Origin: Thermodesulfovibrionales bacterium
GTDB lineage: Bacteria > Nitrospirota > Thermodesulfovibrionia > Thermodesulfovibrionales > JdFR-86
Direction: 5' to 3'
DNA length: 40,023 nt
Assembly (NCBI GenBank): GCA_030682405.1
Contig: JAUXOF010000063.1
Coordinates: 1 to 40,023, forward strand
In this document: positions 3,821 through 33,309 of the stretch, piece after piece
Position numbering within the stretch: position 1 is the stretch's first letter
Layout of the letters: each line of letters opens with the position of its first letter
Notes under the pieces: generated by a model
The model's database searches: none
What the model saw: only the letters and a program-made list of their open reading frames with translations
Told to the model about the DNA's origin: nothing
Made by a program: the position numbers and the translations under genes

Positions 3821-4192
3821 CTATTTGGCGGCGATAATGTCCGTTACCGCTTTTATCAGTTCCTGCGTCTGGATGGGTTTTGTGAGATAGGCGTTGGCGC
3901 CCAATGCCATTGCGCGGTTTCTGTCTTCCTGCGCGCCCTCGGTGGTAATCATTATCACCGGGATGCTTTTGTATGCGTTGTCCTCCCTGATAAGGCTGAT
4001 GAGCTTAAGACCGTTCATCACAGGCATGTTGATGTCCGCCAGTATCAGGTCTATTTTCTCCGAGGAGAGCTTCTTCAATGCGTCAACCCCGTCCGAGGCC
4101 TCAATCACCTTCGAATCGGGTATCCGCTTCATGGCGAAACTTATTAGCTGCCTCATGGTGGGCGAATCTTCTACAACGAGTATTACCGGCAT
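3821..4192 (-). CDS. single-domain CheY-like response regulator
   Basis: The 123-residue protein is a bare receiver domain. E8-D9, phosphoacceptor D53, T83 and K105 are all in place, so it should be phosphorylated. No output domain is present. It is the last gene of the minus-strand chemosensory operon, two bases after the GAF-protein stop, so it is probably the output or a phosphate sink of this pathway. The segment DINMPVMNGLKLISLIR is typical of the CheY/PilG-like class. Which target it binds (flagellar motor, pilus motor or another partner) cannot be told. Confidence 0.88.
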   Translation of the reverse strand: MPVILVVEDSPTMRQLISFAMKRIPDSKVIEASDGVDALKKLSSEKIDLILADINMPVMNGLKLISLIREDNAYKSIPVIMITTEGAQEDRNRAMALGANAYLTKPIQTQELIKAVTDIIAAK

Positions 4193-4194
4193 CC

Positions 4195-5016
4195 CTACCT
4201 CTTCGGCTTCTCCTTCAGGAGGTCGAGAAAGCTCTGCAATGTCGTCAACTTCCTTTCCGACTGGGTGTAAAGCCTCGATGAGAACACGGCCGTAGCCGCA
4301 TGGCCCGCAAGGAGGTTGAAGAGCTCGTAGTCCACATTCGTAAAATTCTTTTTCTGGATGAAAAGGGCATATATGGAGATAACGCCTATCACATGCTCTT
4401 TTATCTTAAGCGGTATGCAGACAATCGGCTCGCCCTTCAGGATGTCCCCCTTTGCATTCATATCCTGAGAGAAATAACTCTCCCCGTCCTTGGTTACATT
4501 CCCGATAATGCCCTCTCCTATTTTCGCCCTGGGTATCTCGGCCGCGGACACGCCTTCTGCGGCAACCGGCAGCAGCTCGTTGGTCTTTTCGTCCATCAGG
4601 AAAACGGCAAACTTCTCGGCCCCCACAAGGTTTATGACTATCTCAAGGATTATCCTCAGCACCTCGTTGAAGTCAAGAGTGGAGTGCAGTTGATAGCTTG
4701 CGACATAGAGGTTGGCAAGGTTGTTGTTCTCCTCCTCCACCTCCACATACCTTACCGCAAAGTCCTTGTTCTCCTCCTCCACCTTGATGAACTTATCCTT
4801 GAGGAATTCTATCTCGGCCTCAAGGTCCTCAATCCTGTGCTGAAAGAGCTTGGCCCTTCCCTCGCCTCCCGACCTATTGACGCTCTCCTCAAGCTCGACC
4901 AGCCTGAACCTGAGCCTCTCGTTCTCCTTCAGAAGCTCCTTGGTAAACTCCTCCCCCTTCTTGAAGACCTGAAGGAATTCATCCGCCATTTTGCCTATGC
5001 TTGCTTTGCTCTCCAT
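4195..5016 (-). CDS. coiled-coil and GAF domain protein
   Basis: Of 273 residues, roughly 10-105 are charged heptad-rich coiled coil (EELLKENERLRFRLVELEE and similar). A GAF domain follows at about 108-250, with LGIL-like start STLDFNEVLRIILEIVINLV, core FAVFLMDEKTNELLPVAAEGV, and EGIIGNVTKDGES. There is no kinase, HD-GYP or GGDEF output domain and no membrane segment, so it is a cytoplasmic sensor or scaffold. It lies between cheB and the CheY-like gene with short gaps, which suggests that it modulates this chemosensory pathway. The ligand cannot be predicted. Confidence 0.8.
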   Translation of the reverse strand: MESKASIGKMADEFLQVFKKGEEFTKELLKENERLRFRLVELEESVNRSGGEGRAKLFQHRIEDLEAEIEFLKDKFIKVEEENKDFAVRYVEVEEENNNLANLYVASYQLHSTLDFNEVLRIILEIVINLVGAEKFAVFLMDEKTNELLPVAAEGVSAAEIPRAKIGEGIIGNVTKDGESYFSQDMNAKGDILKGEPIVCIPLKIKEHVIGVISIYALFIQKKNFTNVDYELFNLLAGHAATAVFSSRLYTQSERKLTTLQSFLDLLKEKPKR

Positions 5017-5032
5017 ACCTTACCCGATTGGT

Positions 5033-6073
5033 TTACCCTTTTGCCGTTCTTATCATCTCAGCGGCGATATCCGTAAGCGGCAGAACTTTTTTGGCGGCGC
5101 CCGCCGCTATCACCTCTGCGGGCATGCCGAAAACAACCGCCGTTTCCTCGGACTCTGCTATAGTATAACCTCCTTTTGATTTAATTTCCAGCATGCCCTT
5201 CCTGCCGTCGCTCCCCATGCCCGTAAGCACCACGCCCATCGTATTGTTGCCGTAGTGCTCTGCGGCGGACATCATCATAATGTCCACCGACGGTATGTAC
5301 TTGTCCTCGTAGACGGCATCTCTTAGGGAAACGTAGACCCTGCCGCGCCTCTTTGAAAGGGTCATATGGCAGCCGCCGGGACATATCAAGGCAACGCCGT
5401 CCTGTATCTCGTCGCCGTTTTCCGCCTCTTTTATCCTCAGCTTTGAAAGGCCGTTAAGCCTTTCGGCAAGCGGGCCGGTAAAGCCGCGGGGCATGTGCTG
5501 GCTTATTATTATCCCTGAGGGGAAATCCGAAGGCAGTTTCGTCAGTATTATCTGAAGGGCTGGCGGCCCCCCTGTTGATGCGCCTATGGCGACCACATCA
5601 ATATCTATTTTCGATGTCTGTACTTCGGGCTGGACGCCTTCGTCTGAGCCGAGGAGCTGAAGGTTGCGGCTCAAGACGTCCATGTTGAGGCCCTTTATGC
5701 CCATGACCTTGGCGACAAGGTCCTTCTCTATATTCTTGAGCTCCATAGAGGCCCGCCTCGACGGCTTTGCTATGAAATCCACGGCGCCGAGTTCAAGCGC
5801 CTTGAAGACCGTTTTCGTATCCGAATAGGAACTGACCATTATCACGGGCGTGGGCCTCTGGGCCATCAGCCACCTGAGGAAACTGAAGCCGTCCATCTCG
5901 GGCATCTCGAAATCCAATGTTATCAGGTCGGGCTTAAGCCTCAGGGTCTTTGCCATTGCGTCTATGCCGTCGGAGGCCACGCCTATGACCTCTATGCCCG
6001 GCACGGACTCAAGCATCTTCTTTATCGTCTGCCTGCTGAACGCGGAATCGTCAACTACAAGCACTTTCACCAT
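5033..6073 (-). CDS. cheB: chemotaxis methylesterase/glutamine deamidase CheB
   Basis: CheB (346 residues) removes methyl groups from receptor glutamates and deamidates receptor glutamines. The receiver domain (1-120) has D8-D9, phosphoacceptor D54 and K103. After a linker, the esterase domain carries the catalytic triad: S166 in GASTGGP, H193 in SQHMPRGFT and D289 in GMGSDG. The length is normal for the family. It starts one base from the cheR stop, so the pair opposes each other on the two receptors encoded upstream. Confidence 0.96.
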   Translation of the reverse strand: MVKVLVVDDSAFSRQTIKKMLESVPGIEVIGVASDGIDAMAKTLRLKPDLITLDFEMPEMDGFSFLRWLMAQRPTPVIMVSSYSDTKTVFKALELGAVDFIAKPSRRASMELKNIEKDLVAKVMGIKGLNMDVLSRNLQLLGSDEGVQPEVQTSKIDIDVVAIGASTGGPPALQIILTKLPSDFPSGIIISQHMPRGFTGPLAERLNGLSKLRIKEAENGDEIQDGVALICPGGCHMTLSKRRGRVYVSLRDAVYEDKYIPSVDIMMMSAAEHYGNNTMGVVLTGMGSDGRKGMLEIKSKGGYTIAESEETAVVFGMPAEVIAAGAAKKVLPLTDIAAEMIRTAKG

Positions 6074-6074
6074 G

Positions 6075-6977
6075 TCACCTTCCCCACACCATCTTAAACA
6101 GGGTGCTGTCGGAAAGAGGGATATCGATTTTCTTGGGTTTCTGATAGACCATGTCGTTTTTTAGATGCTTCAGCGTAAATGCCGTGGAAATATTCATCAG
6201 GGACTCCGCATGCCCCAAAAGCAGGTAGCCCCCGTCCGAGAGCCTTTGGTAGAAATTCTCTATAACCCTCTTCCTCGCATCAATGTGGAAGTATATAAGC
6301 ACGTTTCTGCAAAGCACCACGTCCACCGTCCCCACAAATTTTATCTTAAACGGGTCAAGGAGGTTGAGGTAGCTGAAATTGACAAGCCTCCTGACGCTGT
6401 CGTTTACCTTGTAAAGGCCGTCCTCCTCGGTAAAATATTTCTTGATGAAATACTCATCCGTGGTCCTGAAGGAGTTCTTCCTGTAAATGCCCCTCCTTGC
6501 CGCCTGAAGAACCCTCTGGTTTATGTCGCTTCCGAGCACCTCTATATCCCAGCCGTCAAACATGCCGCCCTGCTCAAGTATCAGCATGGCGATGGTATAA
6601 GGCTCCTCGCCCGAAGAACAGCCCGCCGACCATATCCTCAGTTTCCGGGCGCCGCCCCTCATGAGTCTCACTTCCTTCAGTATCTCCTCGCTCAGGGCCT
6701 TAAGCTGGCTCTCCTCCCTGAAAAAATAGGTTTCGTTTACCGTAAGGATATCCATTGCGGCTGAAAGCTCCTCCTCCTTCTGTCTGTCATAGAGGAGCAG
6801 CCTGTAGTAGTCCCTGAAGTTGTCGAGGTGATGGACCCTCAGCCTTCTTGAGAGCCTTCTTGAGAGAAGGTATTTTGAGGAATCGTCGAAATAGACGCCG
6901 CAGTAATCCTTTATCAGATCCCTCAGCAGCCTGAATGCCTCGTCCGAAAGCGGTATGGATTCTTCGATATCGCTCAT
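6075..6977 (-). CDS. cheR: chemotaxis receptor methyltransferase CheR
   Basis: The 300-residue enzyme transfers methyl groups from SAM to receptor glutamates. The N-terminal helical domain ends at the conserved NETYFFRE (81-88). The SAM-binding domain has GCSSGEEPYT (119-128), the acidic GSDIN segment after the second strand, and CRNVLIYF (223-230). No C-terminal TPR or pentapeptide-tethering extension is present. Its start overlaps the stop of the HEAT-repeat gene by 4 bases, and cheB follows one base after its stop. Confidence 0.96.
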   Translation of the reverse strand: MSDIEESIPLSDEAFRLLRDLIKDYCGVYFDDSSKYLLSRRLSRRLRVHHLDNFRDYYRLLLYDRQKEEELSAAMDILTVNETYFFREESQLKALSEEILKEVRLMRGGARKLRIWSAGCSSGEEPYTIAMLILEQGGMFDGWDIEVLGSDINQRVLQAARRGIYRKNSFRTTDEYFIKKYFTEEDGLYKVNDSVRRLVNFSYLNLLDPFKIKFVGTVDVVLCRNVLIYFHIDARKRVIENFYQRLSDGGYLLLGHAESLMNISTAFTLKHLKNDMVYQKPKKIDIPLSDSTLFKMVWGR

Positions 6978-8962
6978 CGCACAAACCGCTCAAGCGTTTT
7001 TATGACGGCAGGGTCTTCCTCTTTATCGAACAGCCTTTCGAGTTTTGCCCTGACGCCGCTGTCACGGCAGTCGCCGAGCGCCTCGACCGCAGCCACCCGT
7101 GTGGCCCAGTCGTCATCTTCTATAAAAGGCACAATAGCCCCTTCCACTCCCTCAAAACCGGAAAGCGCCTTTATTGCGGTCCTCCGTATCTCCTTATCCG
7201 CGGAGGTCAGCATGCCGATGAGCGCGGCTTTGGCCTCGGCCCCGCCGAGCTTCCCTATAGAGTCCACTGCCGTGGTCACAACAAAACCGTTCTTGTCCGA
7301 AAGGGCCTTTATGAGGGCCGGCGCCGCGCTTCTGCTGCCGAGCATGCCCAAGGCCTTTGCCGCCGCAACCCTTACCATGCCGTCAGGGTCGCTCAGTAAA
7401 AGGCAAAGGGGCTCAAGCGCCCCGTCGCTGCCTATTGCGCCAAGGCTTAAAGCGGCAGACACCCTTATGCCCTGGTCCTCGTCCGTAAGGGCAAGGGTGA
7501 GGTATTTTATGGAGTCCCCTGTTTTTATCGAAGAAAGCGCGCTTACAACCGCCCTCCTAACGTCCACGGAATCGTCCTTGAGCGCAAAGCCCAGCTCCGG
7601 AACGGCTCCGGCAAAAGACAGGACGCCCAGAAGAAGGGCGATATTTTTCCTGAGCACGGGGTTTTTGATTTTAAGACTTTCTATCAATTCATTGATGTCA
7701 AGGCCGTCCTTAAGCCTGCCCAATGCGCCTATAGCGGCCTCCTGAACATCCGGGTACATATCGAGCAGAAGCCCCTTGACGGGTTCTACGGCCCTCAGGT
7801 CCCCTATATTGGCAAAACCCGTGGCTGCTATGGCCCTGACGTGGCCGTCCGCATCCTCAAGCATCTTCAAGAAGATATCGTAGTAAAGGGGGGCGGCAAC
7901 CTCGGCGGCAACCGAGCATGTAAAACGCCTAAGCTGAGGGTTTTCCTTTTCAAACAGGGGGATAAGGGACTCCGGCTTGCCCCTGCCTATGAATACCAGC
8001 GCCCTCTTTACGTCATCCGCAAATTCGGCTTCGGAAGAAAGGTCAAGCAGCGGGTCAAGCGCCCTTTCATCCTTCAGGAGGCCAAGAAGCAGTATCGCAG
8101 AAACCCTCACCTCCGGCTTCGTGCTCCATGCGTGCTCCAGAAGGAGATGAATCGCACCGTCCCCGAAAAAACTTCTCAGATGCCCGGCTACGACTTCCTC
8201 CTTGACACCCTTGTGGTACAGCCTCTCCACGGCCTTAATGGCCTCTTCCTGAACGACCCTCGACTTGTCGTTGATAAAAGGCGCCACTTCCTTAAGGCAC
8301 TCCTCATCGCCGAGCTTTCCTATGGCCTTAAGCGCCGGTTCCCTCAGGGGCTTCCGCAAAAGCGCCCGTATGAGAGCGGGCAGCGCCCGCCCGTCGCCTA
8401 TCCTGCCCAAGGCGTCCGCCGCGGGATAGGCGGTCCAGAGGTCGCCCTCATCAAGGATTGCTATAAGCGCATCCACCACCGACGGCTCCCCGATAACCCC
8501 CAGATGTTCCACAGCCGAGGCCCTGACGTTTTCGTCCTCGTCCTTAAGCGCATCAAGCATCAACTGCAGGGCGTTTTTGTCCCGGAACTGGCCGAGCACA
8601 TCTATGATGAACTTCCTTACGTCCGCATTCGGCGTCTTGAACGCCTCAATCAGATAGGGCGTGGACTTCTTGCCGAGCCTCGTGAGCGTCTCTATGGCGG
8701 AATTCCTTGCGCCCGCGTTATCCTCCATGTAAAGAAGGGAAATCAGACCGTCTATGTAGGCGTCTATGGGGTACTCTTCAAAGAGCATTTCCTGGGCAGT
8801 CTTTCTTACCCTCCAGCCGCTGTCCTGCATCGCCTTTACGAACAGGGCTATGACATCGGCCCGGGCAATGCCGGGCGGCCCGGCCTTCAGCATCAAGACG
8901 GCGGCCCGCCTTTTATCCGTGTCTATGCTCTGCAGTTGTTTTTCAATCTCTTCCTTCAACAT
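6974..8962 (-). CDS. HEAT-repeat protein of the chemosensory operon
   Basis: The 662-residue protein consists of tandem HEAT/PBS-lyase-type helical repeats from end to end, with repeated cores such as VRASAVEHLGVIGEPSVVDAL, VRVAAAKALGMLGSRSAAPAL and IRVSAALSLGAIGSDGALEPL. I estimate about 20 repeats. No signal peptide, membrane helix or catalytic domain is apparent. It should form a cytoplasmic solenoid for protein binding. Its place between cheW and cheR, with 2-base and overlapping junctions, suggests a scaffold in the receptor array or a link to the output machinery. Such genes are known in some deltaproteobacterial-type chemotaxis clusters, but their role is poorly defined. Confidence 0.85.
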   Translation of the reverse strand: MLKEEIEKQLQSIDTDKRRAAVLMLKAGPPGIARADVIALFVKAMQDSGWRVRKTAQEMLFEEYPIDAYIDGLISLLYMEDNAGARNSAIETLTRLGKKSTPYLIEAFKTPNADVRKFIIDVLGQFRDKNALQLMLDALKDEDENVRASAVEHLGVIGEPSVVDALIAILDEGDLWTAYPAADALGRIGDGRALPALIRALLRKPLREPALKAIGKLGDEECLKEVAPFINDKSRVVQEEAIKAVERLYHKGVKEEVVAGHLRSFFGDGAIHLLLEHAWSTKPEVRVSAILLLGLLKDERALDPLLDLSSEAEFADDVKRALVFIGRGKPESLIPLFEKENPQLRRFTCSVAAEVAAPLYYDIFLKMLEDADGHVRAIAATGFANIGDLRAVEPVKGLLLDMYPDVQEAAIGALGRLKDGLDINELIESLKIKNPVLRKNIALLLGVLSFAGAVPELGFALKDDSVDVRRAVVSALSSIKTGDSIKYLTLALTDEDQGIRVSAALSLGAIGSDGALEPLCLLLSDPDGMVRVAAAKALGMLGSRSAAPALIKALSDKNGFVVTTAVDSIGKLGGAEAKAALIGMLTSADKEIRRTAIKALSGFEGVEGAIVPFIEDDDWATRVAAVEALGDCRDSGVRAKLERLFDKEEDPAVIKTLERFVR

Positions 8963-8964
8963 GC

Positions 8965-9426
8965 CTATGCCGTTTCAAACGTCTCTTTGGATTCCTGAAG
9001 CATCATCGTTTCCTCCGAGGTAAGGAACCTCTTCACATCTATGAGTATTACCACCCTGTCCGTTTTTTTCCCGAGTCCTCTAAGGTATTCGGTTTTCAGC
9101 CCCTTGAAAATTCCGGGCGGTTTGGTTATCTCGGCCTTCTCAAAACCCGTTATCTCCCTTACCTCATCTACGACAAGCCCGACCTTTTCGCCGCCTGCCC
9201 GGACGATGATAATACGCTCGTTCTTCGGGAGGGGCGCTACTAAAAGGCGCTTCCTCATGTCTATCATGGGTATCACATCGCCCCTTACTGTCAGCACCCC
9301 TGAGATAAAATCCGGCAGTTCGGGAATAGGACACACCTTCTGGGACTTAAGTATCTCGACGACATCGCTTATGCCGAGCCCGAACTCCTCCGTCCCGAGC
9401 CTGAATACGATGAACTTCTCCATCAC
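8965..9426 (-). CDS. cheW: CheW-type coupling protein (short form)
   Basis: The 153-residue protein is a stand-alone CheW domain. It begins [22 protein letters not shown] and has the typical [19 protein letters not shown] core and a [13 protein letters not shown] segment. CheW couples receptors to the kinase CheA. The operon also encodes a longer CheW, so two couplers are available for two receptors. It overlaps the receptor gene upstream by 4 bases and is followed by the HEAT protein after 2 bases. Confidence 0.93.
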
Positions 9427-11450
9427 CCGATCTTAAACGCCTCCATATCTTTTCTGAGCAGATTCATCTCTCCCTCAAGGCTTCTCAGGGAAAGCGACAC
9501 TGCCTCCATATCCCTCAAGGTGGCAGCCCCTATGCCCTTGACCTCCTCGATATAAGAGATAATGCCCTCGTTTATCTTCTCCTGATTTAAGACGGACTGA
9601 TTTATCTCCGCCAGCCTTTCGCCGGCAAGCTCAAGGTTCTTGGATATCAGCTTTGTCCCAACGGCCTGCTCCTCCGTGCCCCTCTTCGTGGATTCCGCCA
9701 CCTCCCTTACCTCTCCCACGCGCTCGAGCATGAATTCCGACGCCTTGGACTGTTCGTTCGTGGCCTTCGTCATCCGGGAGACCATCTTCCTTATATCGTC
9801 TATGGATGTGGATATCTGCCTGAGACCGCCCGCCTGCTCCTCTGTCGCCTTCTCTATCGCCTTGGCCATCTGGACGGATTTTCTGGAGGCGTCAAGTATG
9901 CTGCCCATCGCCTCCCCGGCCTTATATACCAGAGAACTGCCGTCATCTACAAACTGCATGCCCGCCTCTATGGAGACGACCGCATCGGCTATCTCTGCCT
10001 GTATGGTGCTCACAATGCCGGTTATCTCTTTGGTAGAGGCCGCAGTCCTGTCGCTTAACGCCCGTATCTCGTCGGAGACGACGGAGAAGCCCTTTCCGTA
10101 CTCACCCGCCTGAGCGGCAAGTATCGCCGCATTGAGGCTGAGGAGGTTCGTCTGCTCCGTGACCTCCTTTATCACCGAAAGCATCTTCTCGATGTCCTTT
10201 GACCTTGCCCCGAGACGCCTTACTATCTCCACCGAATACCTGACCTTGTCGGATATCCGCTCCATGCCCTCTATGGCCTCTGCCACCGTTATTACGCCCT
10301 TTTCGGCTGCAATCTCCCTGACGTTATCGGCAAGGGAGGTGGATTCCTTGGCGCTGGATTCCACCTCCTTGACGGACGCGCTTATCTCCTCCACCGAGGC
10401 CAGAGCGTCCTCGACCGAGGTGAGCATTTTTTCGGCGTTCTCTGCCATCGCCTTGGACGTCTGAGACAGCTCGGCAACCGTGGAGTAGGAGTTCTCGGAC
10501 GCCTGAAACAACCTGTTTGTGCTCGAGGCTATCTCATCGGCAATAGTCTTCATCTGAAGAAGGGAGGTTACGTTCTCCGCGGAAAACTCCGAAAGCCTCT
10601 CCGTGCTGCCCGTTATCATCTTCTGAGACTCATTGGCATTTTTTAAAGACAAAGACATCTTGTCCACAGAGTTTGACTGTTTCTGTATGCCCTTTGTCAC
10701 GTTCCCGAATGTCAGGTTAAGCTGTTTTATGGCCATTGCCACATTGTTGGTGGTCAAATGCAATTTCGTCACGGTTGAAGACAGCCCTTGCACCAGAAAC
10801 CTCAGTCCCTTGGAAATGACGCCGAGTTCGTTTTCGCCGGCATCCGAGATATCCACGGTGAGGTCGCCCGCAGTGACATTCTCTATGTTATTCTGGAGGG
10901 CTTTAACCGGGCTGCCGACACTCCTCTGAAAAAACAGATAGATGACCGATATCATCAGTATCACGACCAGCGCCTGACCCGCCGGCGGCACCGTAAGTAG
11001 GCTCAGCATCGCCGCGTTTACCTTATCGCCGCTGTATGTTATTTCGACCGCACCGATAGTGTCGTTGCCCGACCTTACCGGAACCGCAAGCTTGTTCGTC
11101 CACGGCATGAACAAGGGGTTTGCGCTCTGCCCCGCCTGCACTGACCGGGACGACATCCTCTCCTTCAAGACATTGCCCCCGGCGTCCAGAACGCGCACGG
11201 ATATTATGTCTCCGTCCCTCACGGACACATCAAGGAAGCGGTCAAGGGGTTCATAATTGTAATCCGTCATGGCGGCGGAAGAGAAATTCGCAGCGAGGCT
11301 GCCTATGCTGCTTATCTTATCCGAGAGCATTCTCATGTTGTGTCCCTTCTGGTCGTAAAGGAACCATGTCCATAAAGACCCCTGCCCTACCAAAAGGACA
11401 AAAAGCACGATGAGTATAAAACTGCCGGCAATGGATTTTCCGAACCTCAT
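9423..11450 (-). CDS. methyl-accepting chemotaxis protein
   Basis: This 675-residue receptor has an N-terminal membrane helix (about 9-32), a periplasmic sensor of about 120 residues, a second helix (about 155-177, [16 protein letters not shown]) and a HAMP domain with the [21 protein letters not shown] segment. A long cytoplasmic signalling domain follows. The periplasmic domain has no ligand motif that I recognise. The hairpin tip reads [20 protein letters not shown], where enteric receptors have VEAARAGE in place of ILAAQAGE. A good Shine-Dalgarno (aggaggggga) precedes the ATG. It lies 10 bases after the larger receptor gene. Confidence 0.93.
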
Positions 11451-11460
11451 TCCCCCTCCT

Positions 11461-14310
11461 CTATAGCATCCCCATCTTGGACATCATAGCCCTTACGCCA
11501 TTGTAGTCTTCATCGGATGCCTCCATAAAGCCCGTATAGCTCTTGTCTACAGCCTTCAGTATCTGTGCGCCCTCGGGCCTGCCGCCGAGTTCGACAAGGG
11601 CGGACTTGACGGCGCCCCTCTCTGAATTCCCCATGGAAGCGCTTGCGCATATGTTGAACTCCGGTATCTCATCCGAGACCTGCACGTAATAAAGCCCCAT
11701 GTCTTTATATTTGTCGGCGGCGGACTCCATAACCCCGCCGGCGTCAAACTCGCCGTCAATGACGGCCTTTACCACATCGTCGTGGTGACCGAGGTAGTTA
11801 TAATAGGAGAGGGCCTGAAGCTCTATCCCCGCATCAAGGAGCATTGCCCTCGGCACTATATGGCTTGACGTGGAGTGGGCGTCTCCGAACGCAAACGACC
11901 TGTTCCTGATGTCCCTTATTGACTTGATGCCGCTGTCGGCCTTTGTTATTACCAGGGCGCGGTGGAACGGCCTTCCTTCCCTCAGGGCCTTGGCAAGCAG
12001 GGCAACGCCGTAGCCCCTGTAGGCCTCTATGTATGTGGAGGGTGTCATGTAACAAAGCTGTGTGACCCCCTGCCCCAAATCCTTTACTGCGGTTTCAAAG
12101 TCAGTGGCTACTTTAAGCTCTATCTTCTTGCCGAGCCTCCTGCCGAGATAATCCGCAAGCGGAGTAAACCTCCTGAACATATCTGCCGGAGACTCAAGGG
12201 GTACGACGCCGAATTTTATGACCCCTGCGCCTTTTTCCTCGTAGAGCTTGAACCTCTCCATCTCCGTGACCAGAAGGTCCGAATCCTTTGATAGCTCGCG
12301 CAGGGCCTTGTTTATCTTGAAGGTGAGGTCCCTGTTTTCGCCCGGCAGGTTCTTTATCCTATCGACGGAATCCCGTATCTGGCCCGAGCCGAGTTTCTGC
12401 TCGTTAATGGCCCTCGCTATCTGCTGCGACCTGTCCGAGATAATCTCTATGGCCTGTGCCATCTGCCTGCTGGAGGCCTCCTGCTGCTGTGTGGCATTGT
12501 TGACCTGCAGGGAGGAGTTCTTCATCTTGTCCACGGCAACTATGACAAAGGCTATACCTTTTGACTGCTCCGCCGTAGCCCTGGCAATCTGTCCGACCAT
12601 CTCCCTGACGGTCTCTATCGAATCAGACACAAGCCTCGCCGCCTTCGCCTGCTCGCCGGTGGAACGCTCGATGGCAGCCGCCATTTCAGAGGACATCTTG
12701 GAACTTGCAAGAATCTTCTTCACGGCATCCGATGCCTCAGCGGAAAGCTTCAGCCCCTCCTCAACGGACGCCAGCCCGTCCTTCATCGCGTCAACGGCAT
12801 CCCTTACCTCCTGCCTGACGGACTGTATGAGGGTATCTATCTCCTGAGTCGAGAATGCGGTCCTTTCGGCAAGGTCCTTTATCTCGTCTGCGACAACCGA
12901 AAACCCCTTGCCGTGCTCGCGGGCCTGGGACGCCAGTATGGCGGCATTCAGGGCAAGCAGCGTCGTCTGGTCGGTGATATCGTCAATGACGTTCAGTATT
13001 TTGCCTATCTCATCGGAACGGCCGCCGAGTTTCTTTATGACGGAGGCGGTCTTCTCCACCGCCGTCTTAATCCTCTGCATGCCGAGCGCGGTCTTGTCAA
13101 TCGCGGCCACACCGAGAGTGGATGCGTCTTTGGTAACCTTTTCGGAGAGCTTCGCCGATTCCTTGGCGCTTGTCTCGACTTCTTTTATGGAATATATTAT
13201 TTCCTCCACTGCCGAAAGCGTCTCGTCCGATACCTTTGCGAGATGGTCGGAGCTCTCGGCAACCTCTTTTATCGTTGCATACATCTGCTCTATGGAGGAG
13301 GATGTCGCTTCCACTCCCTCTGAGAGTTCGCTGGTTATCTCCGTCACGGAGCCTATGCTTGCAGACATCTGTTCTATCGAGGCCGCAATCTCCTCGACCG
13401 AAGACGCAAGGCTTTCCGTGCCTTCGGCTATCTCCGTTATCGCGGCATTGAGCTGTTCGACGGAACTTGATATGTTGGCAACGGCCTCGGCCTCAAGCTG
13501 TATGCCCTCAAGCACCTTTCTCGATTCGCCTTCCACGCTGCCTGTTGCGCTGGATATCTCCCCGGCAATCTCCTTTACCCTCATGAGGACGGAGCTTATG
13601 GAGCGCAGGGACTCCTTTATAGACCTGTCGAGCTTTCCTATCTCGTCCTTTGTCTTTATGCCGGTCTTAAAAGACAGGTCTCCCTCTGACATCCTCAGGG
13701 CATTGGCCTCAAGCGTTCTTACGGGCCTTACGACAAAACCTCTTATTACCCGCCAGAAGATTATGCCCAGCACAGCCGCGCCCAGAAGGCTCCCCAGCAC
13801 AACCATAATCATAAAGTTCATCACCTTCCGGCGTTCCGCGGCCAAGGAGACGGATATCTTCACCGCGCCTATCACAGGGATATCGGCAGGATGGCAGCCC
13901 CGGCACTGGGCCCGGTTCTCAAGGGGCATGTAAAAGACTATGGAGTCGTCTCTTTGAGCCGCAAAGGCCGTCTTACCCTCGTAGACTTTTTTCAGGTTTT
14001 CAGCCTCGCCCGAATGAACCTCGCCGGTAAAGGCCACTTTCCCCTCATGGTTATAGACATCTATCGTCTCGAATCCGCTTACGGACTTAAGATTTCTTAT
14101 CAGCGTCTTTGCAGAATCGGCATTTCCTTCAAGCATTGTCCTGTCTATGCTTTCGGTAATTACCCTTGCAGTAGCTTCAAGCCTTTCAGTTGCCACGGAG
14201 TAAACGTCGGACTTGACGAAATAAAACACCAGAAGGCTGACCGCCACAACTCCGATTATGAGCAGGCTAAGCCCCATACCGAGAATTTTGAATTCAAGCT
14301 TTTCTCTCAT
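11461..14310 (-). CDS. chemoreceptor with periplasmic CxxCH heme motif and C-terminal PhnD-like domain
   Basis: One uninterrupted frame of 949 residues. Helix 1 (about 9-32) and helix 2 (about 164-186) bracket a periplasmic sensor with C136-R-G-C139-H140, a c-type heme attachment motif in a [17 protein letters not shown] context. HAMP (about 187-240) and a methyl-accepting signalling domain follow, with tip [20 protein letters not shown]. From about residue 697 to the end is a PhnD-like solute-binding fold: start [15 protein letters not shown], core [12 protein letters not shown] and [19 protein letters not shown]. No third membrane helix precedes this domain, so it should lie in the cytoplasm, unlike the usual periplasmic PhnD. 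It may sense a cytoplasmic phosphonate- or phosphate-like ligand or hold an adaptor. The 5' end overlaps the long CheW gene by 17 bases. Confidence 0.9.
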
Positions 14311-15127
14311 CCGCCCCCCCAGACATCCTGAAGTTCATCGCCTCCTGAAGCCTCACGACCGATATAAACCTGTTGTCGGCAACGACAACGCCCTCTATAA
14401 ACTTCGCCTCGGCCTCGCTCAGATGAGACGGCGGCTCAACTATATCCCCCGAGGGAATTCTTATCACGTCTATAACCCGGTCCACCAGTGCGCCTATCGA
14501 GCCCTTCGGCCCTTTAAGTATCACTATTTTCTCTTTTCCCTGTGCGCCGTCCTCGGAAAGGGAGAACCTAATCCTTAGGTCTATCAACGGGATTATCTTC
14601 CCCCTCAGGGACGTAATCCCGAGCATGAATTTCTCCGTCCTTGGCACCTTTGCGAACCTCTGCAGCTTCAGTATCTCCTCCACATCCGAGACCTTAAAGG
14701 CGTAGTCCTCCTTGGCGAGCTTAAAGGTCAAAAGCTCTACCATGTCTCCCTCCTGCTCTTTGTCCGGCGACGGCGGCACGGTTGACTCAGGCTCTTTAGG
14801 CGAGGGCATCCTCTCCTTGGCTGGCAATTCCCCTGCCGCTTCTTCAGCCTCAGGTTCTTCTTCCTCTATATCAGGCTGTAAGGCGACGTGCTCGGCATCT
14901 TCCTCAGGGGGTTTTTCATAAGCGGGATATTCTGTTTCTTCGGAAGGCCCGGAATCTCCGGTCTTCTCCTCCGCATGAGGGGAGGGGATAATCCCGGCAA
15001 CGGCCTCCGGGAACTCGGCCCCGGCCCCGACTATAGGTTCAGCCGAATGTTCGGCTTCTGCCTCCTTTTCGGCCTGACGGGCCTCCTTGGCCTCTTTGAG
15101 TTTCTTTCTTATTTTTGCAATATCCAT
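14294..15127 (-). CDS. CheW-domain protein with long acidic N-terminal extension
   Basis: I place the start at the ATG at 15127 (277 residues). An upstream ATG at 15214 would read into an intergenic repeat element. Residues 1-25 are a basic/acidic helix (KIRKKLKEAKEARQAEK). About 26-125 are Pro/Glu-rich low-complexity sequence. The CheW domain occupies about 127-265 (LLTFKLAKEDYAFKVSDVEE, GITSLRGKIIPLIDLRIRF, GALVDRVIDVI). It is the first gene of the minus-strand chemosensory operon. The disordered arm may extend reach or bind a partner, which is an inference. Confidence 0.85.
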   Translation of the reverse strand: MDIAKIRKKLKEAKEARQAEKEAEAEHSAEPIVGAGAEFPEAVAGIIPSPHAEEKTGDSGPSEETEYPAYEKPPEEDAEHVALQPDIEEEEPEAEEAAGELPAKERMPSPKEPESTVPPSPDKEQEGDMVELLTFKLAKEDYAFKVSDVEEILKLQRFAKVPRTEKFMLGITSLRGKIIPLIDLRIRFSLSEDGAQGKEKIVILKGPKGSIGALVDRVIDVIRIPSGDIVEPPSHLSEAEAKFIEGVVVADNRFISVVRLQEAMNFRMSGGADERKA

Positions 15128-15208
15128 ATTCGTATGGCTATCTATAGGAAAAATCACGTTAATTTTCCCATAAAAACATGGTAAATGTAAAGTGTCGGGG
15201 TTGGCCTG

Positions 15209-15300
15209 CGTCATTCTGGCTTGTCCAGAATCTTTCTCTAAGTAAGGATTCCCGACAAGTCTATGACCCGTGGGTCACGACCCATAGGGCGGGAATGACG
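15209..15300. repeat. composite inverted-repeat element carrying the three-arm module (copy 1)
   Basis: The element is bounded by cgtcattc (15209-15216) and gaatgacg (15293-15300). It contains a small hairpin, attctgg (15213-15219) with ccagaat (15225-15231), and an attcccg/cgggaat pair (15248-15254, 15290-15296). In the loop of that pair sits a module beginning ctatgacccgtgggtc at 15261. A 37-base stretch (15260-15296) is identical to 39111-39147. The outer arms resemble the Neisseria dRS3 pattern ATTCCC...GGGAAT. It lies between the divergent chemosensory operon and hom. Confidence 0.85.
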
Positions 15301-21966: not shown

Positions 21967-23070
21967 TTAAATGAAATTTATATGCTCGGGCATTTCGCCC
22001 TCCGGCTGTTCAAGGGGCTCGCCGCCCTCTTTCAGGTCCCAGAGGAACTCGTTAATCTTGTGCTGCAGGCAGAGGCATCCGCACATGCTGTGGGCATCGA
22101 ACCCCTCGGAGGCTATGAGGTCCATTACCTCCCAATAGCGTTCGCCCTTCCAAAGCTCCTTAAAAGACGTATCCGCGATGTTGCCTATATGGTATCTTTT
22201 GTACGTGTTGTTGAAAAACATGCCGCAGGGGGCGACAAGGCCCGAACCGGATATCTGAAGCATGAAGGGGGGGCCGTAACAGCGGCTGTACTTCCTCTTG
22301 CCGTCGCTTAGAATCTTGGACCATTTCGCCCTGACAATATATGTGCCGGTGGAGTAAGTCTCTGCCTCCTTCAGGATGTCAATCATCCCATGGTATTTGG
22401 AGTAGTCCACGCCGAGAGTGCCGCGCTCGTCGTCGCTGCAGTGCTTTATGACGAGGTAGTCCGCCCCAAGCTCCCTGCCCAGCCGGGCAAGAGGGATAAT
22501 CTGGTCGTTGAACTCGGGCAGAAGAACCATCTGAAGCCCGATGGTAACGGCAAGGCCCTTTTGCTTTTTTATCCTCACGGCCTCCCTGATGGTGCCGATA
22601 ACCTTGTCGTACGCGCCAGTGCTGCAGCCGTGTATCTCTGCATACCGCTTGGGGTCTGCGGCAGAGATGTTAAACCTGAGGTATGTGAGGGCAGGCAGAA
22701 TTTCCTCGAGCCTCTCGTCCTTAAGCACGTGCCCGCTGGTCGCGGTGGACATATCAAGCCCGTTTGCCTTGCCGTGAAGCACGGCATCGTAGAAATGAGG
22801 CGAACAAGTGCTCTCCCCGTCGCTTATCAGGCTTACCGCCTTTACGCCGATTTCAGCGGCATCGTCCAGAAAGCGGAATATGACATCCCGCGTCATCCTC
22901 TTTTCGTCGTTTTCCTGAAGCTGCCCGTAGCAGTAAACGCACTTATAAGTGCACCTGCGGGTGAGGGCGCAGTCTATCGTGACAGGGGCTATCCTCTCGC
23001 CCCTCAGCCACGCCTCAACCCTTTCTTTATGCCACGCTATCTTGTGGCCGTCAAGGATAATCGTGCCCAT
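21967..23070 (-). CDS. radical SAM/SPASM protein, paralogue 1
   Basis: The 367-residue protein has the cluster motif CTYKCVYC (C40, C44, C47) for the SAM-binding [4Fe-4S] centre. A SPASM-type C-terminal region carries further cysteines (YSRCYGPPF, APCGMFF, SMCGCLCLQHKINEF) for one or more auxiliary clusters. The N-terminus LDGHKIAWHKERVEAWLRG matches the three paralogues at 27056, 28132 and 32234. The tail ends MPEHINFI after a short insertion, the most diverged version of the shared PEHVNFI ending. It is the most downstream of the four copies. The substrate is unknown, and the glycan context suggests carbohydrate or cyclitol chemistry over peptide maturation. Confidence 0.88.
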   Translation of the reverse strand: MGTIILDGHKIAWHKERVEAWLRGERIAPVTIDCALTRRCTYKCVYCYGQLQENDEKRMTRDVIFRFLDDAAEIGVKAVSLISDGESTCSPHFYDAVLHGKANGLDMSTATSGHVLKDERLEEILPALTYLRFNISAADPKRYAEIHGCSTGAYDKVIGTIREAVRIKKQKGLAVTIGLQMVLLPEFNDQIIPLARLGRELGADYLVIKHCSDDERGTLGVDYSKYHGMIDILKEAETYSTGTYIVRAKWSKILSDGKRKYSRCYGPPFMLQISGSGLVAPCGMFFNNTYKRYHIGNIADTSFKELWKGERYWEVMDLIASEGFDAHSMCGCLCLQHKINEFLWDLKEGGEPLEQPEGEMPEHINFI

Positions 23071-23085
23071 AAAAAACCGACCCCC

Positions 23086-23916
23086 TTATATCAGCTTGCT
23101 TTTGGACTGCGGATACTGCCTCTTGGCAGCCTGAGAGTCCTCGGATAAGGAGCCGCCCTTTTTGTCCTTCTTTACAAAGTAGAAATCCCTCACAAGCCTC
23201 ATGTATCCTTTTACAACCTTGTAGAAAGAAGGGAAAGAGACTGCCTTTGAGAGCCCCCCCTTCCTCATGCCGAGCCTATAGGGGACTTCGGCAAAAAGAT
23301 AGCCCTTTTTGACGGACCTCACGAGTATATCCGTCTGAAAGAAAAAGCCGCTGCTCCTATAGTCGAGGTCTTTCAGCACTGATTTCCTGTAAAGGACCGT
23401 GCCGTTTGTGTAGTTGAAGTTGGTAAAAAAAGTCGTGTTCACTATAAACCTGTAAACGAAGGAAAGGGCGTTCCTTAAAAAAGAGCGCGTCTCTTTGTTG
23501 AACACAAAAGGTATGATCATGTCCACATGCTCAAGCAGCCTCAGGTATCTGAAAATCTCCCACGGGTCGTTCTCGTTGTCCCCGGGCAGCATGACGACGC
23601 AATCCGAGGCAGCCATGTCCACGCCGTCCCAAAAAGAGTTCCCTATCCCTTTGGGAGTCTCATGCCTTAGAATGCCGATTCTGCCGTCCATTTTCATCAT
23701 CTCGGCCACTATGCCTTCAGTCCTGTCTGTGCTTCCGTCGTTTATGACGATGACCTCGCCCCTTATTCTGTTGTCGTCAAACGCATTTATCGTGTTTTCG
23801 ATAGCCGCGCGGATGTTTTTCTCCTCGTTAAGAGCGGGCATGACCACGGTAATCTCAGGCTTTAAGGCAGCACCGGAAGCCGGGTGAGCGGGCGTCAGGC
23901 TGTTTAACGTCTCCAT
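23086..23916 (-). CDS. family 2 glycosyltransferase (dolichyl-phosphate-mannose-synthase-like)
   Basis: The GT-A domain begins EITVVMPALNEEKNIRAAIE. VIVINDGSTDRTEGIV is the nucleotide-binding region, and PGDNENDP holds the metal-binding acidic residues in place of a plain DxD. NGTVLYRKSVL and a basic C-terminal half follow. No transmembrane helices are evident, so it is probably a peripheral cytoplasmic enzyme moving a sugar onto a polyprenyl phosphate or glycan. I place the start at the ATG at 23916 (276 residues). A GTG at 23961 would add 15 unsupported residues, and neither start has a strong Shine-Dalgarno. It is the only glycosyltransferase of the operon. Confidence 0.85.
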   Translation of the reverse strand: METLNSLTPAHPASGAALKPEITVVMPALNEEKNIRAAIENTINAFDDNRIRGEVIVINDGSTDRTEGIVAEMMKMDGRIGILRHETPKGIGNSFWDGVDMAASDCVVMLPGDNENDPWEIFRYLRLLEHVDMIIPFVFNKETRSFLRNALSFVYRFIVNTTFFTNFNYTNGTVLYRKSVLKDLDYRSSGFFFQTDILVRSVKKGYLFAEVPYRLGMRKGGLSKAVSFPSFYKVVKGYMRLVRDFYFVKKDKKGGSLSEDSQAAKRQYPQSKSKLI

Positions 23917-23978
23917 TTCTAAATATAACACACTGTAATCCGGGTGCGCAAGAATTCTCACCCTTAAAAAGAGGGCAG

Positions 23979-24983
23979 CTACGGCTTGTGGATGTATTCC
24001 GTCTCAGAGACCTTAAGCTCCTCAAAGTACTCATTGACCCATTCTATAACCTCATCAAGCCCCTCGCTGAGGCCTGTGCCGGGCCTCCATCCAAGCTCCG
24101 TGCGCACCTTTGTTGAATCTATCACATAGAGGGCGTCCTGCCCGAGCCTCTCGCCTATAATCTCGGCGGTCTCTTCGATGCTGCGCCCCATTTTTTCGCA
24201 AATAAGCAGCACCAAGTCGTATATGCTTATCCCCTTGCCGTCGGGCGAGATATGGTAAACGTCCCCGTTTCGCCCTCCCCTTGCTATCTTAAGAGTAGCG
24301 TCGCAGACGTCCCTGATGTGGATGTATGACTTCACCGCCCTGCCCCCGCCCTGAAGCTGGAGTTTCTTACCCGTTTTGATAAAAAGGACAGTCCTTGGGA
24401 TTATCCTGTAGAGCTGTTGGTACGGGCCGTAGACGTTGGTTGCGCGCGTATAAACCAGAGGAAGCCCCCTGTTGAGATAAAAGGGATAGAGGCTCAGGTC
24501 TCCGCAGGCCTTTGAAGCGGCATACGGGGTGGAGGGCATGAATCTGGCATTCTCCTCGGTCACGCCGTCGCATGGCCCATAGACCTCAGGGGAGGATATC
24601 TGCACGAATCGCCTGAGGTAGTCGTCCCCTGATATGCGGCTTGCAAGGTTCATTAGGGCTATGCAGTTTGTGTTGAACCACTGCTCCGGCGCGCTCCAGC
24701 TCTGCCCTACCATCCCCTGCGCAGCGAAGTTCAGTATGTAGTGGGGCCGGAATTCCCTGAGCGCGGCAACTATGGCATCGAGGTCTTTGTTGAGGTCAAG
24801 CATTCGGAAGCCGAACCTCCCGCCTGAGGATTTCTTATAAGGAAGAAAACAGCCTTTACTCTCAGGAGACCTGCTTATGCCCAAAACCGAGGCGCCGGGG
24901 TTTTCCCTAAGGACATAGTCCGCAAAGTGCGCCCCTGAGAAGGAATTGCTGCCTATGATTACAAACCTCTCCTCGTCTCCCAT
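23979..24983 (-). CDS. NAD-dependent sugar-nucleotide epimerase/dehydratase
   Basis: This 334-residue extended SDR protein has the nucleotide-binding loop GSNSFSG (11-17), NFAAQG, QISSPEVYG with E133, and the catalytic pair Y154/K158 (PYAASK). TRATNVYGPYQQLYRIIP and SYIHIRDVCDATLKIARGG are typical of dehydratases and epimerases acting on nucleotide sugars. The pattern is closest to GDP-mannose or dTDP-glucose 4,6-dehydratases. The residue pair before VYG (P-E) differs from the D-E of RmlB. It lies between E1 beta and the glycosyltransferase. It could create the 4-keto sugar on which the ThDP enzymes act, which is an inference. Confidence 0.85.
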   Translation of the reverse strand: MGDEERFVIIGSNSFSGAHFADYVLRENPGASVLGISRSPESKGCFLPYKKSSGGRFGFRMLDLNKDLDAIVAALREFRPHYILNFAAQGMVGQSWSAPEQWFNTNCIALMNLASRISGDDYLRRFVQISSPEVYGPCDGVTEENARFMPSTPYAASKACGDLSLYPFYLNRGLPLVYTRATNVYGPYQQLYRIIPRTVLFIKTGKKLQLQGGGRAVKSYIHIRDVCDATLKIARGGRNGDVYHISPDGKGISIYDLVLLICEKMGRSIEETAEIIGERLGQDALYVIDSTKVRTELGWRPGTGLSEGLDEVIEWVNEYFEELKVSETEYIHKP

Positions 24984-24992
24984 ACAGCCCTC

Positions 24993-26087
24993 CTAAAAAG
25001 GCCCCTTGAAATATTCGTCCGGGACATCGCCCACAACGTCCTTAAACCCAAGCTTCCGCGGGTTGAGCCTTACGCCCAGAACGTCCCCAATGGCAAGACA
25101 GATATCCGCCTCGCTGGGGTAGTAATGTCCTGCAAGCGCAGGGCTTGTGGGCGTGGGGACCGAAGGCAGCCCTAATCTTCTGACCTTGGCCTTAAGAGAG
25201 TCAAATCCCTTCTCAGCCACAACCGCCGCTATCTCGGCAGAGACGCCGAACTCATACCAGCTTGAATCCATGACCACAAGCCGCCCGGTCTTTGCAACCG
25301 AGCCTAAGATGGTCTCGGCATCGAGGGGTTTGACTGTGCGGAGGTTTACGACCTCCACGCTTATCCCGCTGCTTAGCAGCCCATCGGCAACTACCATCGC
25401 CTCAAGGGCCATGTCCATCGAGGCAACCACCGTGATGTCGCTTCCTTTTCGCATGACGTTGGCCTTGCCGAGGGGCATGGAGTAATATCCCTCCGGCACA
25501 TCGCCCATCTGGTTTGAAAGCCAGCGGTGCTCGACGAAAATCACCGGGTTGTTCTCCTCTATGGAGGCCGTCAGAAGCCCCTTGGCCTCGCACGGCGTGG
25601 TGGGAGCTACGACCTTAAGCCCGGGCACCTGCGCAAAGAGGGCCTGAAAGTTCTGCGAGTGCTGAGGCCCCTGCCCCCATCCCCGTCCCACTACGGTGCG
25701 GATGGTAAGCGGAACGCTTGCCTGCCCGCCGTACATGTAATGCCATTTGGCAGCGCTGTTTACAATCTGGTCCATCGCCATGAGCACGAAATCCGCCCGC
25801 TGGTGCGCCATGACCGGCCTCATCCCGCTTATCGCCGCCCCTATCGCAACTCCGGTCATTGCGTTTTCGGATATGGGCATGTCAAAGACCCTGCCCGTGC
25901 CGAACCTCTTCTGAAGACCCAGAGTAGTGCCGAACACCCCTTTAGGGTCAGGGGCGCCAAGCCCCATTACAAAAACCCCGGGGTCTTTTTCCATGCACTC
26001 TATAAGGGCCTCGTTAATTGCGGCAGTGAAGGTTATCAGCCTTTTCCCCTTAGGCCCGCATTCTTTCTTATTGTGATTATTGCGCAT
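24993..26087 (-). CDS. ThDP-dependent dehydrogenase E1 beta-like subunit
   Basis: The 364-residue protein has the PYR and C-terminal transketolase-like domains of 2-oxoacid dehydrogenase E1 beta. The catalytic glutamate E74 is in FDMPISENAMTGVAIGAA. HQRADFVLMAMDQIVNSAAKWHYMYGG and the C-terminal VNLRTVKPLD block are typical. It overlaps E1 alpha by 11 bases, as expected for an alpha2-beta2 enzyme. No E2 acyltransferase or E3 is present, so an overall dehydrogenase complex is unlikely from this locus. A carboligase role, adding a two-carbon unit from pyruvate to a keto sugar, is my preferred reading. Confidence 0.88.
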   Translation of the reverse strand: MRNNHNKKECGPKGKRLITFTAAINEALIECMEKDPGVFVMGLGAPDPKGVFGTTLGLQKRFGTGRVFDMPISENAMTGVAIGAAISGMRPVMAHQRADFVLMAMDQIVNSAAKWHYMYGGQASVPLTIRTVVGRGWGQGPQHSQNFQALFAQVPGLKVVAPTTPCEAKGLLTASIEENNPVIFVEHRWLSNQMGDVPEGYYSMPLGKANVMRKGSDITVVASMDMALEAMVVADGLLSSGISVEVVNLRTVKPLDAETILGSVAKTGRLVVMDSSWYEFGVSAEIAAVVAEKGFDSLKAKVRRLGLPSVPTPTSPALAGHYYPSEADICLAIGDVLGVRLNPRKLGFKDVVGDVPDEYFKGPF

Positions 26088-27051
26088 AAACGTCCATCAT
26101 GAGCCTGTCGGCCTCAGGGTAGGCCGAGGATTTAGCATACCTGACGGCCTCCCCGACCTCCTTGATAATCCTGTTGCGGGCCTTCAGGGCATAGTCCTTA
26201 GAGATAACGGATTCCCTGATGAGCTTTCTTTCGTAAGCGGCAACAGGGTCCGCCTTCTTCCACTGCTCGAGCTCTTCTTTTGCGCGGTATCCGAGCTCGA
26301 TGTCGCAGTTAGGGCCGCAGTGCTCCAGATACCTGTAGGTCATTGCCTCAAGCAGATACGGCCCGCGGCCTCGGCGTATGCCCCTTAGGGCGGAAGCCGA
26401 GGCCCTGTTGACCGCCTCAACATCGTTGCCGTTTACCCTTGAGCTTTCAACCCCCAATGAGCGCGCCACCTTATATATATTTCGCGAAGCGGGCTGCCTT
26501 ACGTTAAGAGGCGAATAGACGGAATAGAGATTGTTTTCGCATACGAAGAAAACAGGCAGGCGGTGCAGGGCCGCAAAATTAAGGCTTTCGTAAAAAAGCC
26601 CCTCCTCTGTCGCACCGTCGCCGAAGAAGACCACAGAGACCGACTTTCTGCGCCTGAGCTTGTTTGCAAACGCCACGCCCACGGCTATCGGAATGGTGTC
26701 GGCCACTATGGAAGTCGCCCCGAGAAAGTTCACAGACCTGTCTATCAGGTGCATGGAGCCGCCCTTGCCCGAGGCGCACCCGGTCTCCCTGCCGTACAGC
26801 TCGGCCACCATGCGCCTTAGGTCTCCGCCCCGCGCAAGGTAATGGCCGTGCGAGCGGTGGTTGCTCATTATCGTGTCCGCTCCGCCAAGGGCCTGACACA
26901 CGCCCACGGGGACGGCCTCCTGCCCTATGCAGAAGTGCACCGGACAGCGCATCTCCTGCTCCGCGTAGTAGCGGACAAGCTCCTCCTCTATCACCCTGAT
27001 GCGGAGCATCTCAAGGTAAAAGGCCAGCCTTTTGTTATTGCCAGTTCTCAT
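26077..27051 (-). CDS. ThDP-dependent dehydrogenase E1 alpha-like subunit
   Basis: The 324-residue protein has the ThDP-Mg binding motif GDGATEEG (144-151) followed 22 residues later by CENNLYSVYSP (N173-N174). An RSHGHYLARGG segment and GKGGSMHLID carry the conserved catalytic His residues of E1 alpha. It pairs with the overlapping E1 beta gene downstream. E1-like alpha/beta pairs also occur in antibiotic deoxysugar pathways, where they attach two-carbon branches. It follows radical SAM gene 2 after four bases. Confidence 0.88.
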   Translation of the reverse strand: MRTGNNKRLAFYLEMLRIRVIEEELVRYYAEQEMRCPVHFCIGQEAVPVGVCQALGGADTIMSNHRSHGHYLARGGDLRRMVAELYGRETGCASGKGGSMHLIDRSVNFLGATSIVADTIPIAVGVAFANKLRRRKSVSVVFFGDGATEEGLFYESLNFAALHRLPVFFVCENNLYSVYSPLNVRQPASRNIYKVARSLGVESSRVNGNDVEAVNRASASALRGIRRGRGPYLLEAMTYRYLEHCGPNCDIELGYRAKEELEQWKKADPVAAYERKLIRESVISKDYALKARNRIIKEVGEAVRYAKSSAYPEADRLMMDVYAQ

Positions 27052-27055
27052 GACT

Positions 27056-28120: not shown

Positions 28121-28131
28121 ATGTTATACCT

Positions 28132-29211: not shown

Positions 29212-29212
29212 T

Positions 29213-30956: not shown

Positions 30957-30959
30957 ATG

Positions 30960-31763: not shown

Positions 31764-31809
31764 CCATTAATATACCACAGGCGTAAGCCGAATTAACGCA
31801 TAACCTGCC

Positions 31810-32226
31810 TCATGTTGTGTTCATCTTCTCTATGAGCCGTCCTACGAACCTTACCACTTCCCTGTCGTGCTCTATCATCTTAAGGGGGGCAATCTCTGTA
31901 TACTTAAACCATCCCCAGCCCTGCCCCTCCTGAAGCTTAAGAGCTGATTTGTCCCCTGAGAACTCCTCTATGAACACATACATATGTCCCCTTATGTCTC
32001 CGATTTCATAGTCCTGCTCGTATACGAATTCCGGCGCTTTTGCCCTGTAGTGGAGCTCCTCGAAGGCCTCTCTCCTTACGGCCTCCTCCGGTGTCTCTCC
32101 GTCTTTAATCCCGCCGCCAAAGAATGCCCAGTAGCCGGGCATAATGCGGGCGTCCTCTGTCCGGTGCTGAAGGAGTAGCCTTTTCTGACGGTCATAAAGC
32201 ATTATAAGCGCTACGCGGTTTTCCAC
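31810..32226 (-). CDS. Nudix hydrolase
   Basis: The 138-residue protein contains a complete Nudix box from G38 to E57 ([20 protein letters not shown]). Nudix enzymes cleave X-linked nucleoside diphosphates, including nucleotide sugars. The N-terminus [18 protein letters not shown] is standard for the family. It lies seven bases downstream of radical SAM paralogue 4. It may clear a nucleotide-sugar side product or release a sugar 1-phosphate. The substrate is not predictable from sequence. Confidence 0.88.
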
Positions 32227-32233
32227 TTCGTTA

Positions 32234-33301: not shown

Positions 33302-33309
33302 TCTTAAAC

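Follow-up and report, generated by a model that had tools for sequence, protein, structure and literature searches.

A chemoreceptor of the Nitrospirota with a PhnD-type solute-binding domain at its C-terminal, probably cytoplasmic, end

Introduction

Binding-protein folds are generally thought of as extracytoplasmic, and PhnD-like domains normally lie in the periplasm. What, then, might such a domain be doing behind the signalling domain of a chemoreceptor? The question is raised by one gene in a 40,023-nucleotide stretch of Thermodesulfovibrionales DNA (that whole stretch being termed the window), and it concerns whether the domain is a genuine solute-binding fold, on which side of the membrane it lies, what it might bind and what the receptor might control. 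The explanation preferred here, and held to be rather probable, is that the domain serves as a cytoplasmic sensor for some metabolite of the cell that carries an oxyanion group, C3 phosphates being the best candidates, integrated with a periplasmic heme-c sensor in the same chain.

Receptor layout and fold of the C-terminal domain

The receptor, 949 amino acids long, is encoded on the minus strand by a single open reading frame, complement(11461-14310) (Table 1). A preliminary description had placed two membrane helices, HAMP, a signalling domain and then a PhnD-type domain in one frame; Pfam and hydropathy bear out that order, and the start near residue 697 given for the last domain is right, with the Pfam match at residues 700-936 and the domain taken as 697-949. 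The strand and the periplasmic heme-type sensor are points absent from that description. With its transmembrane helices, HAMP, MCPsignal and che operon setting, the protein has the make-up of a methyl-accepting chemotaxis receptor, and the placing of the PhnD-type domain after the signalling domain puts it among receptors with a C-terminal ligand-binding domain. An assembly artefact is excluded, since many genomes, each assembled independently of the others, have the fusion in a single frame.

Table 1. Features of the receptor gene and of the che operon in the window
Feature	Position	Strand	Evidence
Whole gene, chemoreceptor with C-terminal PhnD-type domain	11461..14310	-	ORF, Pfam
TM helix 1, about residues 9-31	14218..14286	-	hydropathy
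Periplasmic sensor Mcp40H-20_sensor, residues 50-156, heme-c PAS type of GSU0582/GSU0935	13843..14163	-	PF21563, E=9.7e-8
CRGCH heme-c attachment motif, residues 136-140	13891..13905	-	sequence
TM helix 2, about residues 164-190	13741..13821	-	hydropathy
HAMP domain, residues 189-232	13615..13746	-	PF00672, E=2.4e-7
MCP signalling domain (MCPsignal), residues 415-570	12601..13068	-	PF00015, E=4.4e-40
Returning coiled-coil helix and short linker, residues 571-695	12226..12600	-	model, mostly helical
PhnD-type (type II) solute-binding domain, residues 697-949, probably cytoplasmic	11464..12222	-	PF12974, E=4e-59; model; Foldseek
Ser813-Thr814-Ser815, oxyanion-binding STS motif	11866..11874	-	maps to Te_PtxB S130-T131-S132
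His843, predicted third-oxygen ligand	11782..11784	-	maps to Te_PtxB H160
Phe885, at capping-tyrosine position of phosphite binders	11656..11658	-	maps to Te_PtxB Y208
CheW with N-terminal extension, first operon gene	14294..15214	-	PF01584
Second chemoreceptor, no C-terminal domain	9423..11450	-	PF00015
CheW	8965..9426	-	PF01584
HEAT-repeat protein	6974..8962	-	PF13646
CheR	6075..6977	-	PF01739
CheB	5033..6073	-	PF01339
GAF-domain protein	4195..5016	-	PF13492
CheY-type receiver	3821..4192	-	PF00072

The Phosphonate-bd match spans the whole profile (1-242 of 242) at 200.4 bits against a cut-off of 27, and with NCBIfam TIGR01098 the domain scores 124.5 bits, the cut-off being 112.05. An AlphaFold model of the domain, made with a 35-sequence alignment (A1) of domain plus linker, has block-mean pLDDT values of about 90-98, and its best Foldseek match in the PDB is ArrX (6x8w; E=2.6e-29, TM 0.90 on the target), with PtxB (5jvb) at TM 0.87 and AioX and PhnD also ranked. 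The phmmer results concur (PtxB 5e-28, ArrX 2e-20). The high-confidence model and these best matches identify a type II binding-protein fold; a domain search and structure prediction, which the preliminary description had proposed as a check, have thus both returned the solute-binding fold that it had surmised. The full-length monomer model (pTM 0.39, with low confidence at residues 571-604 and 685-695) is too weak to judge domain coupling.

ArrX and AioX are signalling proteins, not transport proteins. They and PtxB share the domain's fold, and PtxB its oxyanion motif as well, but all are separate periplasmic proteins (sensors of arsenate and arsenite in the case of ArrX and AioX, with phosphite the ligand of PtxB), and their cap residues are unlike those of the window domain. 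A role as transport accessory, in which the domain would interact with a phosphate or phosphonate ABC transporter, is what the family name and profile might bring to mind. However, che genes surround the domain here and in relatives, where no adjoining PhnC/PhnE-type ABC transporter gene is seen. Members of the family usually lie in the periplasm and have a signal peptide or an N-terminal anchor; this domain has no signal peptide and comes after a signalling domain of the cytoplasm. Such a role is very improbable.

Membrane side and the putative heme-c sensor

Hydropathy detects no membrane segment after residue 230, the maximum 19-residue mean being 1.08. Since heme c attachment takes place outside the cytoplasm, the loop between the two transmembrane helices should be periplasmic and everything past the second helix cytoplasmic. 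The heme assignment itself derives from the Mcp40H-20_sensor profile (32.7 bits against a cut-off of 27) together with the CxxCH motif, which place the sensor in the heme-c PAS family, and C136, C139 and H140 are invariant in 30 aligned heme-type proteins (alignment A2); the direct match of the periplasmic part to 3b42 is weak (E=0.0015) with CxxCH aligned. Homologues in Bacillota that likewise have the MCP domain ahead of the PhnD-type one (loci L167, L170, L172 and L174-L177) have zero membrane segments. On these three grounds, the motif between the helices, the lack of a later helix and the homologues free of any, a cytoplasmic position of the C-terminal domain, as the preliminary description had it, is well supported by inference, and a periplasmic one is rejected.

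The receptor is then probably a two-sensor protein, with periplasmic heme c and the C-terminal domain. With GSU0582 and GSU0935 of Geobacter sulfurreducens it shares the periplasmic Mcp40H-type sensor, CxxCH between two transmembrane helices, HAMP and MCP domains. A review describes those proteins as having HAMP and then an MCP domain (PMC8396549), and the PhnD-type C-terminal domain present in the window receptor goes unmentioned for them.

The binding pocket

Residues of the pocket were mapped from phmmer alignments with PtxB sequences, at about 25% identity, onto the Te_PtxB residues of PMC5700983. Besides the correspondences in Table 1, Y55, Y100 and D22, the last being the partner of the cap Y208, fall at F738, H783 and L705. 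S813 is present in 78 of 78 fused domains, His at 843 in 75 and Phe at 885 in 73, with STS mostly kept, and conservation at the four STS-His positions exceeds that of position sets drawn at random from the domain (p=0.014 for Nitrospirota, p=0.006 for Bacillota). The remainder of the pocket differs by phylum, with Tyr738, Tyr783 and Asp885 in Bacillota and mostly Phe, His and Phe in Nitrospirota. Given that STS-His is conserved and the tyrosine cap replaced, the domain appears to retain its place for a head group with three oxygens and to have lost the phosphite-specific cap.

With Phe885 and Leu705 in place of the tyrosine cap and the aspartate that pairs with it, the domain stands apart from the phosphite-binding PtxB group and is unlikely to be a phosphite sensor: in Te_PtxB, Y208F lowers phosphite affinity by about three orders and essentially abolishes phosphate binding (PMC5700983). 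Another comparison is with GpxB, a PhnD-family protein that binds glycerol 1- and 3-phosphate with a Ser-Asn-Ser/His head site, without an aromatic cap and with Arg223 and Thr247 as tail residues; there the missing aromatic cap is accompanied by organic phosphates of larger size as ligands (PMC12718374). GpxB shares with the window domain the family, the Ser/His head site and the lack of a Tyr cap, but is a periplasmic component of a transporter, whereas the window domain is predicted to be cytoplasmic and is borne by a receptor.

Whether the domain still binds anything is a separate matter. It occupies the C-terminal place that the CheR/CheB tether has in other receptors, the chain ends in KMGML with no CheR-type C-terminal pentapeptide, and the receptor's own operon includes genes for both CheR and CheB, so the domain could be a scaffold that docks these or another partner, or that stabilises the dimer, with ligand binding gone. 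Conservation of the pocket residues across the 78 domains and in the separate Bacillota clade makes such a degenerate scaffold unlikely. Further, the sister receptor of the operon, though presumably served by the same CheR and CheB, has no such domain, and a scaffold leaves unexplained the linkage to glycerol and glycolysis genes described below. The scaffold is accordingly regarded as improbable, and the C-terminal domain would instead be, as part of the preferred explanation and with the same measure of confidence, a genuine, ligand-competent sensor domain working in the cytoplasm.

Spread and origin of the fusion

A frame of about 950 residues matching the domain is found in more than half of 61 genomes of the order, mostly at 45-68% identity, and among 296 Nitrospirota genomes at least 74 matches take in the linker. 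The fusion and its che operon are conserved across dozens of Nitrospirota genomes. In relatives the N-terminal sensor varies, being a heme PAS, a Cache (L147, L052) or a 4HB domain (L157), or it is reduced to a membrane hairpin (L139-L142, L151-L153), while the PhnD-type domain is the constant part, kept whatever the N-terminal sensor. Where the receptor has just a hairpin, or is soluble, no other sensor domain is recognised, which argues for a sensing role.

Every MCP fusion found in a GTDB scan was from the Nitrospirota, but restriction to that phylum proved wrong when a phylum-wide Bacillota search gave a second fusion clade. In 345 genomes of the Geobacter phylum and 399 of the Chromatiales phylum the fused frame was not found among the matches listed, where with 5-6 candidates scored per genome its absence is unproven. 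In a domain tree derived from a short search, and whose deep forks are weak, the fused domains of Nitrospirota form one group (SH-aLRT 86) and those of Bacillota another (100), with unfused proteins between them; two independent origins of the fusion are the likelier reading of these sequences.

Several other candidates fell away. Frames of 550-600 amino acids that might have been shorter fusions were, in those examined (L103, L108, L111, L113), tandem PhnD domains without MCP. L156 and L146 were rejected as MCP fusions, and L074 and L092, seemingly unfused domains inside the MCP group, begin at the very edge of a contig, probably as truncated receptors. The L156 frame (L156:5209-7470) has 754 residues, in which two PhnD-type domains come after four hydrophobic segments.

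Unfused PhnD relatives (L101-L138, e.g. L103:4559-9056, L114, L120 and L131) are in several cases tandem, and often have a histidine kinase and an NtrC-type regulator downstream. A regulator-like match is present at 17 of 40 unfused loci, with a Pfam check in four, which suggests a large group of PhnD-based three-component sensors.

Ligand class

Eight of 15 Bacillota fusions adjoin genes of glycerol/dihydroxyacetone metabolism or glycolysis, a count for which the gene set was chosen after the first neighbours had been seen, and in which several loci are of one clade, so that independent cases number perhaps three or four. The neighbours are GlpK/GlpA or DhaK-DhaL-DhaM at L162, L163, L169, L170, L174, L176 and L177, and gap-pgk-tpi-eno at L175. 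Within the Nitrospirota, two of five members of the 640-residue hairpin subclass lie beside glycolysis genes, L139 being divergent from iPGM (phosphoglycerate mutase) and L141 near GAPDH-PGK; no such metabolic neighbours are seen at L140, L142 and L187. Among the unfused PhnD loci, taken as control, one of 40 has such a neighbour. At L162, L163, L170, L174, L176 and L177 the MCP-PhnD genes are within the glycerol/dihydroxyacetone operons. Beside that of L170 there is a fusion of HPr with a sigma54 activator, which has homologues in L174, L176 and L177.

The receptor's own operon contains no metabolic genes, so that the class of ligand is transferred to it from relatives with different pockets, whose neighbours point to phosphorylated C3 compounds as candidate ligands of the window receptor too. 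A competing explanation is that the domain senses an inorganic oxyanion entering the cell, be it phosphate, sulfate, arsenate, phosphite or a simple phosphonate. Its nearest solved relatives are indeed PtxB, for phosphite, and ArrX, for arsenate and with sulfate bound in a mutant; the STS-His cradle is kept; and the unfused relatives checked precede a histidine kinase and NtrC-type regulator, which is a sensor arrangement. The replaced cap residues, with the effect of Y208F in Te_PtxB (PMC5700983), detract from this, and the metabolic neighbours of relatives favour organic phosphates over inorganic oxyanions. Inorganic oxyanion sensing is thus the strongest of the competitors, though still unlikely. 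As to the preliminary proposal that the receptor senses a cytoplasmic phosphonate, phosphite or related molecule, its ligand-sensing part gains from the kept STS-His and the retention of the domain in forms without a periplasmic sensor, while phosphite is disfavoured by the change of Tyr and Asp to Phe885 and Leu705 and by the C3 settings of the relatives.

Operon, host and output

The gene order of the operon (extended CheW, receptor, second receptor, CheW, HEAT, CheR, CheB, GAF, CheY) is the same in most of the relatives' loci examined. At L028, L029, L034 and L038 the spacing between the two receptors is about 0.8 kb, versus a few bases in the usual operon. CheA is upstream in relatives, and the orthologous CheA of the host sits on another contig (C22), near a Ras/Arf-type small GTPase, presumably MglA-like from its sequence, and a GAF-GGDEF protein, the locus being L185 (2438-3667 and 4498-6471). 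The host genome, 99.8% complete, gave no match for FlhA and has PilT-family ATPases above the curated cut-off. With FlhA missing, PilT present and CheA near a small GTPase, the gene content makes a pilus-based or regulatory output of the receptor more likely than flagellar chemotaxis.

Elsewhere in the window, at 21967-33622, there is a cluster of several radical SAM/SPASM proteins, sugar epimerases of GDP-mannose dehydratase and RmlD type and an E1 dehydrogenase/transketolase pair that is split; it may serve a pathway for surface glycans or modified sugars. The host genome's other PhnD-type protein (L001:462-2295) has a signal peptide-like start, and the gene before it has a start that we take to be ABC-type substrate-binding-like.

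A possible mechanism

In the preferred explanation, that of a cytoplasmic metabolite sensor, the PhnD-type domain, attached at the membrane-proximal end of the returning coiled-coil helix, would gauge how much there is in the cell of a metabolite carrying an oxyanion. A phosphorylated compound from central metabolism is the most likely, and the best candidates are C3 phosphates such as glycerol 3-phosphate, dihydroxyacetone phosphate, phosphoglycerate and PEP. As the domain's two lobes close around the ligand, the coiled coil would come under strain and CheA activity would change. Structures of TlpD display allostery from a C-terminal ligand domain to the kinase tip (PMC12871147), and as the C-terminal domain of TlpD acts in this way, coupling by lobe closure is judged by analogy the most likely. 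TlpD and the window receptor have in common a ligand domain that comes after the signalling domain and, in the window receptor by prediction, is cytoplasmic (PMC12871147, PMC7390727). However, its CZB is a small zinc-binding domain, whereas the window receptor has a whole two-lobed solute-binding protein and, in addition, a second, periplasmic sensor. The latter, with its heme c, would report redox state or a gas via the second transmembrane helix and HAMP, and the receptor would integrate this with the signal from the C-terminal ligand.

A bolder composite is also entertained, though held to be doubtful: that a periplasmic binding protein was relocated, twice and independently, to the cytoplasmic end of receptors, there to act as a C3 phosphate sensor, accompanied in Nitrospirota by a heme redox sensor, and to steer a pilus-based or other non-flagellar output.

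Significance

Ligand domains at the C-terminus of chemoreceptors are already recognised, with at least 17 types of them in Pfam (PMC7390727), and Phosphonate-bd may be among these. Literature searches found no paper on an MCP with a PhnD-type C-terminal domain. The interest lies in a binding-protein fold that has apparently been put to use twice inside the cell, and in the genomic clues to its ligand.

If the preferred explanation is true, metabolism-dependent (energy) taxis would gain a concrete molecular sensor, in a field where it is hard to show that an intermediate inside the cell is sensed directly. As some of the Bacillota versions are soluble and versions of this type lie beside glycerol or dihydroxyacetone kinase genes, the ligand question can be put to the test at once with a small purified domain. 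For Nitrospirota it would mean a receptor with two sensors, one for redox and, across the membrane from it, one for metabolism. A PhnD-type domain at the cytoplasmic end of a receptor, in either phylum, may allow cells to be guided by the state of their own metabolism.
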